Origin: Oceanomicrobium pacificus
GTDB taxonomy: Bacteria > Pseudomonadota > Alphaproteobacteria > Rhodobacterales > Rhodobacteraceae
Assembly (NCBI RefSeq): GCF_009833495.1
Contig: NZ_WUWG01000003.1
Location: forward strand, 434,001-498,000
Direction of reading: 5' to 3'
DNA: 64,000 nt
The notes beneath the pieces were generated by a model that had not been told where the DNA came from, made no database searches, and worked only from the letters and a program-made list of their open reading frames with translations. A program made the translations under genes and the position numbers. Positions 2,838 to 9,467 of this stretch are shown here, piece after piece. Position 1 is the stretch's first letter. Each line of letters begins with the position of its first letter.

Positions 2838-3278
2838 GTGACCGGGCGCTGGCTCGGTGGCGGGCTTGTCCTGTTCGCGGTGCTGTTCGGCGCCGCGCTC
2901 TACTATTTTCAGGTCTATGCCTATTACGAGCGCGTGTCGGGCCTGTCAGCGATCACCGTCGCCGGGCAGGAGGTTGCTGTCAGCGAGTATGACGGGATCG
3001 ACGCGGACACGTCCGGGCTGAAACTGCGCGGCTGTTTCCGCACCGACCCGCAGGCTTTCGACGGGCTGCCCGTCGCCGCCGCGCCGACACCGCTGACGCC
3101 GCCGCGCTGGTTCGACTGTTTCGATGCCGCCGCGCTGCAGGACGACCTCGATGCGGGGCGCGCCACGGCCTATATGGCGGCCGAGAATGACAAGGACGGG
3201 ATCGACCGGCTGGTGGCCGTCTATCCCGATGGACGCGGCTTCCAGTGGCGTCAGCTCAACGAGAAATACACGGATTGA
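2838..3278 (+). CDS. Small membrane-anchored protein of unknown function between glyQ and glyS
   Basis: The predicted protein has 146 residues: one N-terminal hydrophobic helix (about 5-25, rich in L, V, F and A) and then a polar domain, probably exported. The domain has two Cys (in RGCFRT and WFDCFDAA), which could form a disulfide. The start is GTG at 2838 with GGAGG-like CGGAGG 5 bp upstream, and the stop lies 2 bp before glyS. I recall similar proteins at this position in other Rhodobacterales, filed as a domain of unknown function (DUF6446, from memory). Its placement inside the glycyl-tRNA synthetase operon suggests co-expression, not necessarily a shared function. Confidence 0.75.
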   Translation: MTGRWLGGGLVLFAVLFGAALYYFQVYAYYERVSGLSAITVAGQEVAVSEYDGIDADTSGLKLRGCFRTDPQAFDGLPVAAAPTPLTPPRWFDCFDAAALQDDLDAGRATAYMAAENDKDGIDRLVAVYPDGRGFQWRQLNEKYTD

Positions 3279-3280
3279 TC

Positions 3281-5497
3281 ATGCCCGATTTGCTGCTTGA
3301 ACTCTTTTCCGAGGAAATTCCCGCCCGCATGCAGGCACGCGCCGCGGCCGACCTCAAAAAGCTGGTGACCGACGGGCTGGTCGAGGCCGGTCTGACCTAT
3401 GCGGCGGCGGAGAGTTTCGCCACCCCGCGTCGCCTGACGCTGGCTGTCCACGACCTGCTCGGTGAGAGCCCGACCACGGTCGAGGAACGTAAAGGTCCGC
3501 GTACCGATGCGCCGGAAAAGGCCATCGAGGGGTTCCTGCGCTCCACGGGCCTCAGCCGAGACGCGCTGGAGGTCCGGGACGACAAGAAGGGCCAGGTCTT
3601 TTTTGCAACGATCCGGCGGCCCGGACGGCCGGCTGCCGAGATCATCGCGGAGACCGTGACAAACACGATCCGCACCTTCCCATGGCCGAAATCCATGCGC
3701 TGGGGTGCGGGCAGCCTGCGCTGGGTGCGTCCGCTTCACTCGATCCTGTGCATCCTGTCGGACGAGGCCGGGGCCGAACTGGTGCCGTTCGAGGTGGACG
3801 GGATCGAGAGCGGCACGACCACGCAGGGCCATCGGTTCATGGGGCACGGCACGATCAGCGTGACGGGTTTCGAGGATTATGCCGCCAAGCTGAAGGCCGC
3901 GCATGTGATCCTCGATCCGCAGGAACGCGCCGACCGGATCTGGGAGGATGCGCGCCAGATGGCCTTCGCGCAGGGTCTCGATCTGGTGGAGGATCGCGGC
4001 CTGTTGGCCGAGGTGGCCGGTCTCGTGGAATGGCCGGTCGTGCTGATGGGTGACATTGCCGACACGTTCCTCGACCTGCCGCCCGAAGTGCTGCAGACCT
4101 CGATGAAGGAACATCAGAAATTCTTCTCCGTCCGGAACCCGAAAACCGGCCGGATCGAGAAATTCGTGACTGTCGCCAACCGCGAAACCGCCGATCAGGG
4201 CGCGACCATCCTTGCCGGCAATGGCAAGGTCCTGTCGGCACGGCTCGCAGACGCAAAATTCTTCTGGGACAATGACTTGCGTCGTGTGGCAGAGGGCGGG
4301 CTCGATGCGATGGCCACGCCGCTGGCGCAGGTCACCTTCCACAACAAGCTCGGCAGCCAGGCTGACCGGATCGCGCGTATCGAAGCGCTATCCGGCGATC
4401 TGGCCGGACCGGTTGGCGCTGAGGCCGGACAGGCCCAGCAAGCCGCGCGTATCGTCAAGGCCGACCTCTCGTCCGAGATGGTCTACGAGTTTCCCGAATT
4501 GCAGGGCGTGATGGGCGGATATTATGCCCGCGCGGCGGGTCTGCCAGACGCGGTGGCCGACGCCTGCACCGGGCACTATCAGCCGCTCGGCGCGTCCGAT
4601 TCCGTACCCGAGGGGCCGGTTTCGGTTGCCGTGGCGCTGGCCGACAAGCTCGACATCCTGACCGGCTTCTGGTCGATCGACGAAAAGCCGACCGGGTCGA
4701 AGGATCCGTTTGCGCTCCGCCGTGCCGCGCTCGGCGTGATCCGGATCATCGAGGCGGGCGATTTGCGCCTGCCGCTCCGTCCGGTCATCGTGGCCCAGCT
4801 TCTGCGCCACGAAATCGCGCAAGCGGGCGGCGGGGCCGATGCGGACACGGCTGCGCTGAACGCCATGCTGGACGATCTGGTGAAGAAGGGCCTTTTCGGC
4901 GCGGCTTTCGATGCCATTGCCGACCGGTTGGCAGAGCATGGCGGGGCTGACCGCAGCCTCGACGCGATTGCCGACGATCTTCTGTCCTTCATCCATGACC
5001 GGCTGACCGTGCATCTGCGCGATCAGGGCATCCGGCACGATGTGATCGCGGCCTGCCTTGCGATGCCCGGTTCTGATGACCTGACGCTTCTGATGGCACG
5101 GGCGCGGAGCCTGTCGGCCTTCCTTGGCACGGACGACGGGGAAAACCTGCTGCAGGGCTTCAAGCGGGCGAACAACATCCTGACGGCCGAGGAAAAGAAG
5201 GACGGGATCGAATATTCGCTCGATCCGGACGTGAAATTTGCCGAGGAACCGACCGAGAAGTCGCTCTTTGCGGCGCTCGACCGGGCGGAACCTGCGATTG
5301 CCACGGCAATGGGGGCGGAGGATTTTGCCGCCGCCATGCAGCATATGGCCGAGTTGCGCGCGCCGATCGACGCGTTCTTCGAAGCGGTACAGGTCAACAG
5401 CGACAACCAGATCGTGCGCCGGAACCGGCTCTGCCTGCTCAACCGGATCCGTCAGGTGATGGGGCAGGTGGCTGATTTCACGCGGCTCGAAGGCTGA
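3281..5497 (+). CDS. glyS: Glycyl-tRNA synthetase beta subunit
   Basis: The 738-residue beta chain begins MPDLLLELFSEEIPARMQ, the hallmark of GlyS, and contains TPRRL, the RTFPWPKSMRW segment and the KVLSARLADAKFFWDNDL block. It binds tRNA-Gly and completes the alpha2beta2 enzyme with GlyQ. The open frame extends upstream to 3245 inside the previous gene, but ATG 3281, 2 bp after that gene's stop, fits the family N-terminus. The length is within the GlyS range (about 690-740). The C-terminus carries an HD-like and anticodon-binding region ending RNRLCLLNRIRQVMGQVADF. Confidence 0.97.
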   Translation: MPDLLLELFSEEIPARMQARAAADLKKLVTDGLVEAGLTYAAAESFATPRRLTLAVHDLLGESPTTVEERKGPRTDAPEKAIEGFLRSTGLSRDALEVRDDKKGQVFFATIRRPGRPAAEIIAETVTNTIRTFPWPKSMRWGAGSLRWVRPLHSILCILSDEAGAELVPFEVDGIESGTTTQGHRFMGHGTISVTGFEDYAAKLKAAHVILDPQERADRIWEDARQMAFAQGLDLVEDRGLLAEVAGLVEWPVVLMGDIADTFLDLPPEVLQTSMKEHQKFFSVRNPKTGRIEKFVTVANRETADQGATILAGNGKVLSARLADAKFFWDNDLRRVAEGGLDAMATPLAQVTFHNKLGSQADRIARIEALSGDLAGPVGAEAGQAQQAARIVKADLSSEMVYEFPELQGVMGGYYARAAGLPDAVADACTGHYQPLGASDSVPEGPVSVAVALADKLDILTGFWSIDEKPTGSKDPFALRRAALGVIRIIEAGDLRLPLRPVIVAQLLRHEIAQAGGGADADTAALNAMLDDLVKKGLFGAAFDAIADRLAEHGGADRSLDAIADDLLSFIHDRLTVHLRDQGIRHDVIAACLAMPGSDDLTLLMARARSLSAFLGTDDGENLLQGFKRANNILTAEEKKDGIEYSLDPDVKFAEEPTEKSLFAALDRAEPAIATAMGAEDFAAAMQHMAELRAPIDAFFEAVQVNSDNQIVRRNRLCLLNRIRQVMGQVADFTRLEG

Positions 5498-5588: not shown

Positions 5589-8279
5589 GTGACGCAGCGC
5601 ATCAGACAGATCACAACCGCCGGCCGCATCGATCCGGCGGTCTATGGCGAGCGCGGGGCGCGGCTCTGCGCGATGGCCGCGCTCGGCCTGCCGGTGCCCG
5701 ACGGGCTGATCCTGCCGGCCGATCTGGTGTCCGAGATTGCGACCGGTGCGCCAGTGCCCGACCTTGGCGCCTTTCCCGGCGCGCCGGATATCCTTTCGAT
5801 CCGCTCCAGCCCCGAACGGTCCGACTGGGGCGGGCCGACCGCGATCCTCAATATCGGTCTTTCCGACCGGGAGACGGAGAAGCTCGCGGCCACGATCGGC
5901 GCGGCGCCTGCGCTCGACCTCTACCGCCGGTTCATCCAGAGCTTCGGCACCGGTGTGGCAGGGCTTGATCCAGAGGATTTCGAGAATCTCTATTATGACC
6001 AACTGAAGCTCGCCGGTCTCGACACGCATGACGGGCTCGACGCGGGCCATTTGTCCGACCTCGTCGATGCATCCAAAGATTTCTATGCAGACGAGGTGGG
6101 CGAGCCGTTCCCGCAGGATCCGCATGATCAGCTTCGCGCCGCGATCCGCGCGATGGCGGAAGCCTGGGCGCGGCCCTCGGCCCGGATTTTGCGCCAGGCC
6201 CGCGGGGCTGATCCCGAGGCCGGAACGGCGCTCATTCTCCAGACGATGGCGCTTGGCATCGGGCAGGGGCTTTCCGGGTCAGGCCTTGTGCAGATGGTCG
6301 ATGCCGACAGCGGCAAAGCGGTGGTGACGGGACGGTTCCTGCCGCAAAGCCAGGGGCAGGACGCACTCATGGGCGTGCGCACACCACATCTGATCACCCG
6401 CGCGTCGCGCGAGGCCGAGGGCCAGAGCGCACCGGCGCTGGAAGAACTGGCGCCTGACGCACTGACCGCGCTTCAGGCCGCCGATCTGAAGGCGACCGAA
6501 GGACTCCGCGACCGGTTCCAGTTCGAGTTCACGCTCGACCGCGGACAGGTCTGGCTGCTCGACGCGATGCCGGCCAAACGTTCGGCCCGCGGGGCTGTGG
6601 CCATTGCCGTCGATCTGGCCGACCGCGGCATCATCACGCGGGAGGAGGCCATCCTCCGGATCGACCCGCGCAACCTGATCCAGCATCTTCATCCGCAGAT
6701 CGACCCCGACGCCCGGCGCGACGTGTTCGGCACCGGTCTGGCGGCGAGTCCCGGCGCCGCGACCGGGCGGATCGTCTTCTCGGCGGAGGCCGCGCTTGCC
6801 ATGCAGGCACAGGGCGAGGCGCCGATCCTGGTGCGGATCGAGACCAGCCCTGAAGACATCCGCGGCATGCATGCGGCGGTCGCGGTTCTGACGGCGCGCG
6901 GCGGGATGACGAGCCACGCGGCCGTGGTGGCGCGCGGGCTCGGTCTGCCCTGCGTGGTCGGCGCGTCCGATATCCGGCTCAACCTGCGCAAGGGCGTGCT
7001 CACGGTCGCCGACGGTCGCAAGTTCAACGAGGGCGCCGTGGTCACGATCGACGGCACACGCGGCGAGGCCCTGATGGGGGCAGCGCGGATGATCCAGCCC
7101 GAACTTGGCGGCGCCTATGCCAAGGTGATGGACTGGTCGGACGATATCCGCACGCTCGGCGTGCGCGCCAATGCCGACACCCCGCAGGACGGGCGGCTGG
7201 CGCGCCAGTTCGATGTGGACGGGATCGGGCTCTGCCGGACCGAGCATATGTTCTTCGAGGAAGACCGTATCCACGTCATGCGCCAGATGATCATGGCCGA
7301 TGATGTGGACGAGCGCCGCGCCGCGCTCGACCGGCTTCAACCGATCCAGCGCGCTGATTTCGAAGAGCTTTTCGCGATCATGCAGGGGCTTCCGGTGGTC
7401 ATCCGCTTGCTCGACCCGCCGCTCCACGAATTCCTGCCACACGGGCATGACGAGATGCAGGATCTGGCCGAGGCGATGGATCTGCCGGTCAGTCAGGTCA
7501 CCGGCCGCGCCGAGGAATTGCGCGAATTCAACCCGATGCTTGGCAAGCGGGGTGTCCGGCTCGGCATCACCATGCCCGAAATCTATGAGATGCAGTCGCG
7601 CGCGATCTTCGAGGCGACGCTCGCGGTAAACCGCCGCGCCGACGCGCCTGTGGTGCCGGAGATCATGATCCCGCTCGTCTCCGCCTATCGCGAGGTGGAG
7701 ATGATCAAGAGCCGGATCGACGCCATCGCGCAGGAGGTGCAGGCGCAGGCGGGTGAGGCGCTCTCCTACAAGCTTGGCGTCATGGTCGAGACCCCGCGTG
7801 CGGCCTTGCGCGCGGGCGATCTTGCCGCCAGTTCGGCCTTCCTCAGTTTCGGTACGAACGATCTGACCCAGATGACTTACGGGCTCAGTCGCGACGATGC
7901 GGGGCGCTTTATGCGCGACTATGTGAATGCAGGCGTTTTTCCCGAGGACCCGTTCCATTCCCTCGATGTCGAGGGGGTGGGGGAGCTGCTCCTGCTTGCC
8001 GCGAACCGGGGCCGGGCGCAAAATCCCGATCTGGTGCTGGGGCTTTGCGGTGAACATGGCGGCGATCCCGCTTCGATCCGCTTCTGTCAGGTGGCCGGAT
8101 TCGACTATGTGTCCTGTTCGCCCTTCCGGGTGCCGATCGCGCGTCTGGCGGCGGCGCAGGCGACGCTTCTGTCCCGGCGCGACCGCGGGGCAGCGGATGC
8201 GCCCGGACTGGAACCGGAAGCGCGCGGTGTTGGGAGCGATTCCGTCCCGCCAACCCGCTCGGCAAGCGGCACGGGCTAG
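5589..8279 (+). CDS. Pyruvate phosphate dikinase-like protein with atypical ATP-binding half
   Basis: The protein has 896 residues and the PPDK domain order: ATP-grasp region (1-340), phosphohistidine swivel domain (GGMTSHAAVVARG, His443) and PEP/pyruvate barrel (LCRTEHMFF, SFGTNDLTQM, GLCGEHGGDP with Cys820). The C-terminal half keeps the motifs I know from Clostridium symbiosum PPDK. The N-terminal half does not: the Lys22 position is Arg22, the MPGMMDT loop reads DWGGPTA (79-85), the Glu279 position is Gln257, Asp321 is Gln311, Gln335 is Asp325 and Arg337 is Met327. This is a by-eye alignment. It may no longer use ATP/Pi as a normal dikinase. Start is GTG 5589 behind GGAAACGGGGC. It follows glyS by 91 bp. 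A low-complexity tail after residue 875 is unusual. Confidence 0.8.
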   Translation: MTQRIRQITTAGRIDPAVYGERGARLCAMAALGLPVPDGLILPADLVSEIATGAPVPDLGAFPGAPDILSIRSSPERSDWGGPTAILNIGLSDRETEKLAATIGAAPALDLYRRFIQSFGTGVAGLDPEDFENLYYDQLKLAGLDTHDGLDAGHLSDLVDASKDFYADEVGEPFPQDPHDQLRAAIRAMAEAWARPSARILRQARGADPEAGTALILQTMALGIGQGLSGSGLVQMVDADSGKAVVTGRFLPQSQGQDALMGVRTPHLITRASREAEGQSAPALEELAPDALTALQAADLKATEGLRDRFQFEFTLDRGQVWLLDAMPAKRSARGAVAIAVDLADRGIITREEAILRIDPRNLIQHLHPQIDPDARRDVFGTGLAASPGAATGRIVFSAEAALAMQAQGEAPILVRIETSPEDIRGMHAAVAVLTARGGMTSHAAVVARGLGLPCVVGASDIRLNLRKGVLTVADGRKFNEGAVVTIDGTRGEALMGAARMIQPELGGAYAKVMDWSDDIRTLGVRANADTPQDGRLARQFDVDGIGLCRTEHMFFEEDRIHVMRQMIMADDVDERRAALDRLQPIQRADFEELFAIMQGLPVVIRLLDPPLHEFLPHGHDEMQDLAEAMDLPVSQVTGRAEELREFNPMLGKRGVRLGITMPEIYEMQSRAIFEATLAVNRRADAPVVPEIMIPLVSAYREVEMIKSRIDAIAQEVQAQAGEALSYKLGVMVETPRAALRAGDLAASSAFLSFGTNDLTQMTYGLSRDDAGRFMRDYVNAGVFPEDPFHSLDVEGVGELLLLAANRGRAQNPDLVLGLCGEHGGDPASIRFCQVAGFDYVSCSPFRVPIARLAAAQATLLSRRDRGAADAPGLEPEARGVGSDSVPPTRSASGTG

Positions 8280-8645
8280 GGTCAAGGGCGGGATGGCAGC
8301 CCGCCTGTAGCAGCGCACGCCGATCGGCGAATCGTTGCCGGTCGCCGCCTGTGGATAAGTCGAAAGTTGAACAAAAGCATTATGTTGCGCTGCATTGATG
8401 CGATGCGAAATCGACTTGTTTAGACTGTTGGCGTAACATTCTGAAATTAATTAAAAATTTCGATTGAACGCGGCTCCATCGCAAGATGCCCCGTGCGACC
8501 GCTTGCCACAAAGCCTCTGAAAAGGCTGGACTTGCCGGTTTCGGGCGCTATGTATCCCGCCGTTGTAATTGAACGCGTTGCCGCCGTGGAAACGGTGGAG
8601 GGTGGCGCATCTGGCGCCACGAAAATTGTAGGTGGGACTACAGAT
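8280..8645. other. 366-bp intergenic region with AT-rich promoter-like core
   Basis: No gene is visible here. A GGCGGG/CCCGCC hairpin lies at 8287-8305 without a T-run, so it is at best a weak terminator for the PPDK-like gene. The stretch 8341-8470 is far richer in A+T than anything else nearby and contains TTAATTAAAAATTT; the arms GAAATT (8443-8448) and AATTTC (8456-8461) form an inverted repeat with a 7-bp centre. This is the likely promoter or operator of the SleB-type hydrolase gene. The open frame upstream of 8646 in the hydrolase frame (from 8493) looks like leader, not protein. Confidence 0.5.
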
Positions 8646-9467
8646 ATGACGAAGATTAGCAACCGGCGCCTCGCCGGTCTGTCGGCTTTGTGCATCCTGC
8701 TGGTGCCGCTCTCGCTGAAGCCCGTTGCCGGCCTCTCGCGCGAAGCGCATGCCCCGACCCCCCAGGACCAGGTACTCGACCAGATTCTCACGGTGCAGAG
8801 CCAGGAGCATCGTGCCGATGCCGACCGCAGCCCGACGACATTGTCGGAACTGGAACCGATGCAGGTGGCGGGGCTGCAGCCGTCGCGCCTCTATCAACAG
8901 CAGTGGCGGCTCAATCGTTCCAAACATTCCGGCCAGCATCTGCTGTCGACCGAACATGCGGTGCCGTCCGCGGCCATGCCAAGCGCTCTGGCGACCCGTC
9001 CGGCAGAGGAACTGACCTTCGCGATGGTCGACGCGCTGCCGCGGGCCGAGGGCGGGGCGGAACTCGACTGTCTGGCCGAAGCGCTCTATTTCGAGGCGCG
9101 CGGCGAGACGCTTCTGGGCCAGATTGCGGTTCTGGAAGTGATCCTGAATCGCGTGGATGCGAAAAAATATCCCGACTCGGTCTGTGGCGTGATTGCACAG
9201 GGCACGAGCAGCGGGCGCAAACATGCCTGCCAGTTCTCCTACAAGTGCGACGGCCGCAAGGAGGTCTTCTCCGAGAAGGCGACCTACGAGCGGGGCCGGA
9301 AACTGGCCAAGATGATGCTCGACGGGCGGACCCGGGACCTCACGGACGGGGCGACCCACTATCACACAAAACATGTGAACCCGTCCTGGGCGCGGCGTCT
9401 GACCAAGACCGCGCGCTACGGGGTGCATCTCTTCTACCGCTACCCGACGACCATCGCGTCGAACTGA
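8646..9467 (+). CDS. SleB-type cell wall hydrolase, secreted
   Basis: The 273-residue protein has a signal-like N-terminus (MTKISNRRLAGLSALCILL, ending near AHAPT) and a C-terminal Hydrolase_2 (SleB/CwlJ) domain from about residue 140: LAEALYFEARGE with the family glutamate, ILNRV, CGVIAQG, CQFSY and GATHYHT. Members cleave peptidoglycan glycan strands, or modify cortex in spore formers; in non-sporing alphaproteobacteria the role is wall remodelling. I chose ATG 8646 because it gives a proper signal peptide; the frame is open back to 8493 but that extension is polar and unlike a leader. The region between signal and catalytic domain is low in complexity and probably a periplasmic linker. Confidence 0.85.
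   Translation: MTKISNRRLAGLSALCILLVPLSLKPVAGLSREAHAPTPQDQVLDQILTVQSQEHRADADRSPTTLSELEPMQVAGLQPSRLYQQQWRLNRSKHSGQHLLSTEHAVPSAAMPSALATRPAEELTFAMVDALPRAEGGAELDCLAEALYFEARGETLLGQIAVLEVILNRVDAKKYPDSVCGVIAQGTSSGRKHACQFSYKCDGRKEVFSEKATYERGRKLAKMMLDGRTRDLTDGATHYHTKHVNPSWARRLTKTARYGVHLFYRYPTTIASN

Follow-up and report, generated by a model that had tools for sequence, protein, structure and literature searches.

A PPDK homologue of the Rhodobacteraceae with a remodelled ATP-grasp half and an intact PEP half

A PPDK homologue encoded in a 64,000-nucleotide stretch of the Oceanomicrobium pacificus genome (the window; CDS 5589..8279, + strand) has lost residues of PPDK-type ATP chemistry and retains those that exchange phosphate between PEP and a histidine. 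The change in the ATP half is family-wide in the Rhodobacteraceae (Paracoccaceae), not local decay or a single broken gene. PPDK interconverts pyruvate, ATP and Pi with PEP, AMP and PPi. Judged from its residues, the protein has very likely lost this activity and is likely to have kept the transfer from PEP to His443, and it is read here, with moderate confidence, as a PEP-dependent histidine phosphotransferase that would use an acceptor other than AMP/PPi. The remodelled PPDK variant is thus probably misnamed by automatic annotation.

The CDS starts with GTG and runs without internal stop for 896 aa, compared with about 845-859 aa in most remodelled relatives and 884-893 aa in three canonical rows. 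It comprises an N-terminal half with a predicted ATP-grasp fold and a remodelled active site (residues 1-375; 5589..6713, +), the phosphohistidine (swivel) domain (residues 376-500; 6714..7088, +), and the PEP/pyruvate-binding domain (residues 511-860; 7119..8168, +). Pfam places the PEP-utilisers mobile domain at residues 412-492 and the PEP-binding domain (PF02896) at 511-858, whereas PPDK_N (PF01326) gave no match in the N-terminal half or elsewhere in the protein at a maximum E-value of 10, a setting at which the HMMER filters still discard most matches above E ~0.1. At E<=0.001, PPDK_N matches 3 of 51 remodelled members versus 9 of 9 canonical ones. NCBIfam nevertheless assigns the name PPDK, as the equivalog TIGR01828 (EC 2.7.9.1) scores 922.2 bits against a cut-off of 843.45 in a match that starts at residue 66. 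The nearest solved structures in sequence are PPDKs. Scans of the 64-kb window for tRNA genes and Rfam families found none.

Residues were mapped by alignment to Clostridium symbiosum (Cs) PPDK, such that H443 and C820 of the window protein correspond to Cs H455 and C831. Among K22, R92, D321, E323, Q335 and R337, which we take to be the ATP-grasp catalytic residues, K22R, D321Q, Q335D and R337M are replacements, while R92 and E323 are kept. On the + strand, R22 stands in place of Lys22 (5652..5654), R72 equals Arg92 (5802..5804), and a D79-W-G-G-P-T-A85 loop replaces MPGMMDT of Cs 99-105 (5823..5843). Further along, R249 replaces Glu271 (6333..6335), the same change as one of three in the engineered mutant 2R82, Q257 replaces Glu279 (6357..6359), Q311 replaces Asp321 two residues before E313, the equivalent of Glu323 (6519..6527), and D325 and M327 replace Gln335 and Arg337 (6561..6569). 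The Cs R219 position is S197. The original prediction had read Arg, Gln, Gln, Asp and Met at Lys22, Glu279, Asp321, Gln335 and Arg337, together with loss of the MPGMMDT loop; all five substitutions and the loop stand, but R92 and E323, which it did not mention, are present.

The regulatory Thr and the phospho-accepting His both lie in T441-S-H443 (6909..6917, +). R561, R617, E745, S764, N768, D769 and C831, presumably the PEP-site residues, are likewise all retained, as R550, R606, E734, S753, N757, D758 and C820 of the window protein. The further claims that the phosphohistidine and the PEP-site Cys are kept, and that the PEP half is intact, hold well beyond this one protein: H455 and the seven PEP-site residues are found in 141 of 141 regular remodelled rows of the family alignment.

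The spread of the gene was followed in 198 family genomes, one per genus. A homologue is matched at E<=0.001 in 196 of them and strongly (E below 1e-80, hand count) in 189; seven have weak matches alone (G067, G093, G097, G126, G130, G155 and G195), and the 198-genome search gave no match in G033 and G101. Since G093, G101, G126 and G130, at completeness of at least 95%, yielded no real match on a repeat search, the gene can be lost and is not essential everywhere. Named carriers among the best 80 of 591 matches include Roseovarius, Ruegeria, Leisingera, Phaeobacter, Paracoccus and Rhodovulum. In a phylum search of 398 genomes, 27 family genomes scored at least 893.9 bits and the best outsider 860.1 bits (51% identity). 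However, some family members fall below that outsider (G057 828, G029 798, G089 777 and G054 745), so the variant cannot be recognised by its score alone. Read at residue level, three outsiders from the phylum search and the 27 best outsiders from a class search were canonical in all 30 cases.

The residue pattern is close to uniform within the family. Among 112 family rows, R22 occurs in 109 and D335 in 112, as do H455, R561, R617, E745, S764, N768, D769 and C831 (112 each). In the 141 regular remodelled rows, which are loci, several per genus in places, and not independent, the K22, D321, Q335 and R337 set is kept in none, and K22, E279, D321, Q335 and R337 are all absent in 140. All 27 canonical rows from Alphaproteobacteria, which are the outsiders with the best scores, have the canonical ATP-grasp residues. 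Around the replaced loop, the 141 rows have S94 in 141, W100 in 138, G101 in 140, G102 in 139 and P103 in 137; S or T stands at 219 in all 141 and R271 in 140, and the former R337 position holds V (114), I (8), M (6), A (4) or L (4). Left out of these counts were L088, L106, L180, L183, L184, L189-L198 and L202-L204, not all of which were aligned; L183, L197 and L198 are partial, and L184, L189, L190 and L191 represent further versions of the remodelled form. Ten set-aside rows (L180, L184 and L189-L196) all retain the eight PEP/His residues, although L190 and L191 carry T453S, and eleven further family rows outside the 141 have the same pattern, with S at 323 in L293 and at 453 in L295. An apparent His loss in L197/L202 was rejected as an artefact: the alignment has no His there, yet a single contig carries the pieces on opposite strands.

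The ATP half has changed without ceasing to be constrained. The model of the window protein has a mean pLDDT of 90.1, with N-half blocks mostly above 85, and its N half aligns with the ATP domain of rifampin phosphotransferase (5hv6_A; Z 21.0, rmsd 2.6, 232 aligned), so the ATP half is predicted to keep the ATP-grasp fold. Over 45 pairs that passed filters, out of the 60 closest tried from 282 in range, remodelled genes have a median Nei-Gojobori dN/dS of 0.14 for the N half, against 0.074 for the C half; the corresponding canonical medians, from two pairs, are 0.039 and 0.046. Mean pairwise identity in the N and C halves is 0.59 and 0.73 for remodelled and 0.71 and 0.70 for canonical proteins. 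Both groups conserve 36 N-half positions, but with differing residues; another 56 N-half positions that are conserved in canonical rows are variable in remodelled rows and 12 show the reverse, and residues 376-866 contain 11 conserved-but-different positions. Purifying selection on the ATP half is weaker but clear, and the half has its own signature of R22, DWGGP, R271 and D335. The description of this half as degraded therefore holds insofar as most of the PPDK-type ATP residues are gone; given the predicted fold, the selection and the half's own conserved residues, including the 36 that are conserved but different, it is better called remodelled.

As the checked PEP/His residues are invariant and the ATP chemistry is gone, transfer from PEP to form phospho-His443 is the simplest working model. 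PEP would bind the intact C-terminal barrel, His443 would take its phosphoryl group as pyruvate leaves, and the swivel domain would pass the phosphate to something other than AMP/PPi. The acceptor could be a new ligand in the remodelled ATP-grasp pocket or a protein, and the N half might accordingly hold the acceptor or only position the swivel domain. The function suggested in the original prediction, receipt of phosphate from PEP and its transfer to a partner in place of ATP formation, is partly supported: loss of the ATP chemistry is very likely and the PEP/His residues are retained, whereas His phosphorylation by PEP and a partner protein are proposals. An alternative is that the protein acts as a non-catalytic PEP/pyruvate sensor, which would alter its conformation on binding PEP or on phosphorylation of the His, its N half serving as a regulatory or scaffold domain with no net phosphotransfer. 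Such a role would suit an N half that is predicted to be well folded and is under purifying selection, yet evolves faster than the C half, but invariance of all eight PEP/His residues in the 141 rows and in the ten set-aside rows exceeds the needs of ligand binding, which makes a sensor unlikely.

It is also conceivable that the protein is still a PPDK, or nearly so, with a re-engineered ATP site in which R22 stands in for Lys22 and D335 for Gln335 as metal ligand. R22, R92, E323 and D335 are indeed found in 140, 141, 134 and 141 of the 141 rows, and the TIGR01828 score is above the equivalog cut-off; however, nearly all rows lack D321, R337, E279 and the MPGMMDT loop. The PPDK mutants K22A and R337A are reportedly impaired. 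Both have been made, by the titles of entries 1jde and 2dik. Published fluxes in relatives point the same way. In Roseobacter denitrificans on [3-13C]pyruvate, flux from pyruvate to PEP was weak, a route from OAA to PEP was likely active, and expression of ppdK (RD1_1948) was low (PMC2749216). In glucose-grown Dinoroseobacter shibae and Phaeobacter gallaeciensis, PEP from pyruvate was 0 although ppdK is annotated, which is weak evidence since Bacillus subtilis, B. megaterium, Corynebacterium glutamicum and Escherichia coli are also 0 in the same table (PMC2761930). Remodelled forms are present in a Phaeobacter MAG (L083) and in two Roseobacter-labelled loci (L037 and L049), which are relatives of the 13C strains and not those strains' own ppdK. 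Taken together, a working PPDK is very improbable. Least credible of all is a remnant that is decaying towards loss because PEPCK has taken over the making of PEP: several genomes have no real match and PEPCK occurs in 173 of 173 good family genomes, but open frames of 837-896 aa stand at 108 of 110 loci (L088 and L106, the exceptions, are cut or short), dN/dS is well below 1 in both halves, and a new signature has arisen.

Within the PEP-dependent phosphotransferase reading, an acceptor within the N half is as plausible as a separate partner, given that the N half is folded, selected and bears its own signature. One tentative extension, going by the conserved residues, is that the ATP-grasp domain was turned into a site for a different phosphoryl acceptor, making a family-wide PEP:X phosphotransferase whose pocket would be marked by R22, R92, D-W-G-G-P, R271, E323 and D335. 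The ATP half might still bind some nucleotide or metal, since it retains R92 and E323 and its D335 does not vary. A neighbourhood search for the acceptor found the SleB-type gene conserved downstream, yet no chemistry linking the protein to it. HPr, encoded by one gene in the window's genome, is a conceivable acceptor to which no positive evidence points.

The position of the swivel domain in the models was considered and rejected as evidence, because a canonical control model is also nearer to several PEP-side structures. By Foldseek, the window model has TM values of 0.80-0.84 to 5jvl_A/C, 5jvj_A, 2r82 and 1vbg and 0.66 to 1dik/1kbl; the control has 0.82-0.85 to 2r82, 1vbg and 5jvl_A, 0.78-0.79 to 5jvl_C and 5jvj_A, and 0.76-0.77 to 1dik/1kbl. 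Nothing is drawn from the wider gap in the window model, since alignment depth differs (51 rows, against 9 for the control, whose pLDDT is 81.5). In the engineered triple mutant R219E/E271R/S262D, the swivel domain comes to rest at the PEP domain (PMC5371819). By analogy, the natural E271R may hint at a different docking of the swivel domain on the N half; it was rejected as proof that docking is lost, as the family has R271 with S/T219 and the other two changes differ. A search of PMC5507339, PMC4844700 and PMC5556012 gave no useful passage on ATP-site or docking residues.

The gene has kept its chromosomal place. A glyS-like ORF (3245..5497, +), which we take to be glyS, ends 91 bases before the CDS, and the downstream ORF (8493..9467, +) presumably encodes a SleB-type cell-wall hydrolase. 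In a synteny sample of 145 family loci, three set-aside variants included, the gene lies downstream of glyS, on its strand and no more than 700 bases away, at 128 of 140 family loci and at 27 of 27 canonical loci with room. A SleB-type gene is next downstream at 136 of 142 family loci versus 4 of 26 canonical loci with room. The remodelled gene thus occupies the ancestral glyS-ppdK locus. The protein is best explained as a vertical replacement of the alphaproteobacterial PPDK in Rhodobacteraceae.

Several loci bear on how the replacement came about. The family genome G054 has a canonical PPDK (L192) directly after glyS, with a PPDK_N match and the regulatory kinase in the genome. L180 (G004), L193 (G193), L194 (G058), L195 (G171) and L196 (G017) keep K22, have lost other ATP-half residues, and have a complete PEP/His set despite their different ATP-half losses. 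L007 retains K22 and E279, L180 retains K22, E279 and R337, and L193 and L196 retain K22 and R337 without the MPGMMDT loop, L193 also having R219 and E271, with Ala at R92. In a quick C-half tree, the 27 canonical outsiders group together (SH-aLRT 99) and L192 lies outside them on a long branch; as 35 of 81 inner branches are unsupported, the order of losses is a suggestion. These forms would fit a course in which the old ATP site was lost step by step and the new one was then fixed.

Among known systems, the window protein is closest to PPDK, with which it shares the domain order, the His and PEP residues, the alphaproteobacterial glyS locus and the overall predicted fold (5jvl_A; Z 45.3, rmsd 4.2, 839 aligned), and from which it differs in the replaced ATP-grasp residues and loop, the missing PPDK_N match, and S and R in place of R219 and E271. 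PTS enzyme I (EI; TIGR01417) has the same PEP-to-His machinery, and the predicted C half aligns with 2hwg_A (Z 27.5, rmsd 3.3, 400 aligned). However, the protein scores 118.4 bits against the TIGR01417 cut-off of 341.7 and has an ATP-grasp domain where EI has its HPr-binding part, and the window's genome encodes a separate, weak EI-like match beside its one HPr. PEP synthase (TIGR01418) has related His and PEP domains and is matched from the His domain on, but at 141.7 bits against a cut-off of 739.75.

Mycobacterial VadK (Rv1127c, PRK05878-like) is likewise a PPDK descendant with a new role. It is described as a truncated protein, and it undergoes autophosphorylation at its swivel histidine (PMC13400623). 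On that description VadK keeps the ATP half and the His, whereas the window protein keeps the PEP half and the His; the window protein also scores 232.9 bits on NF004531 against a cut-off of 456 and contains PF02896. Full-length mycobacterial PPDKs without critical kinase motifs, also mentioned there (PMC13400623), may be a parallel to it. As a separate observation, about 55 of 62 matches of canonical PPDK to viral contigs in IMG/VR (L233-L287) are confined to about residues 1-620. Most end near 520-545, thus covering the ATP half and histidine domain without the PEP domain, and a few are fragments. This layout is the reciprocal of the window protein and is VadK-like.

The window's genome has no second PPDK hit, its sole other match (29%, 142 residues) looking EI-like, and no PF01326 match; it encodes one PEPCK. 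Across the family, 58 of 198 genomes have some PF01326 match, full-length in about 42, that of G054 being the glyS-linked gene. Separately, ORFs in which PF01326 matches two short, detached segments, at about 100-224 and 263-311, occur in about 17 family genomes (e.g., G006:C50, G013:C1 and G026:C49); most of these ORFs are 800-1360 aa long.

One intact copy of the PPDK-regulatory kinase (PF03618) is present in the window's genome (G000:C1:932499-933263; L213 5940-6800), with a GVSRTSKTPT stretch common to the three others aligned and neighbours that we take to be maf, aroE, coaE, dnaQ and secB. Outside the family, PF03618 occurs in 148 of the 179 alphaproteobacterial genomes that have a PPDK match below 1e-60 and in 5 of the 58 that do not (hand count). 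In the family it occurs in 8 of 198 genomes and is absent from 190, so the kinase is not required in most members. According to a review, the regulator targets the threonine in the active site of PPDK, and in E. coli it controls PEP synthase (PMC8100219). As the kinase is present and the remodelled protein is the sole target found, the His/Thr switch of this protein is suggested to be still in use in the window's organism.

No description of the remodelled variant was found in a literature search whose scope left most subscription papers outside. The PPDK reaction of a published D. shibae model runs in reverse in all states studied (PMC3789786), and a CO2-assimilation route via PPDK is cited as proposed for R. 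denitrificans (PMC2761930). If the present reading holds, both reactions rest on a wrong annotation, and the gene, present in 189 of the 198 genomes sampled from a family to which the marine roseobacters belong, stands for a new PEP-driven phosphotransfer. Should the PEP:X reading be true, Rhodobacteraceae would phosphorylate a metabolite or protein with PEP, and gating by the PPDK-regulatory kinase would persist in a few members, such as the window's organism.
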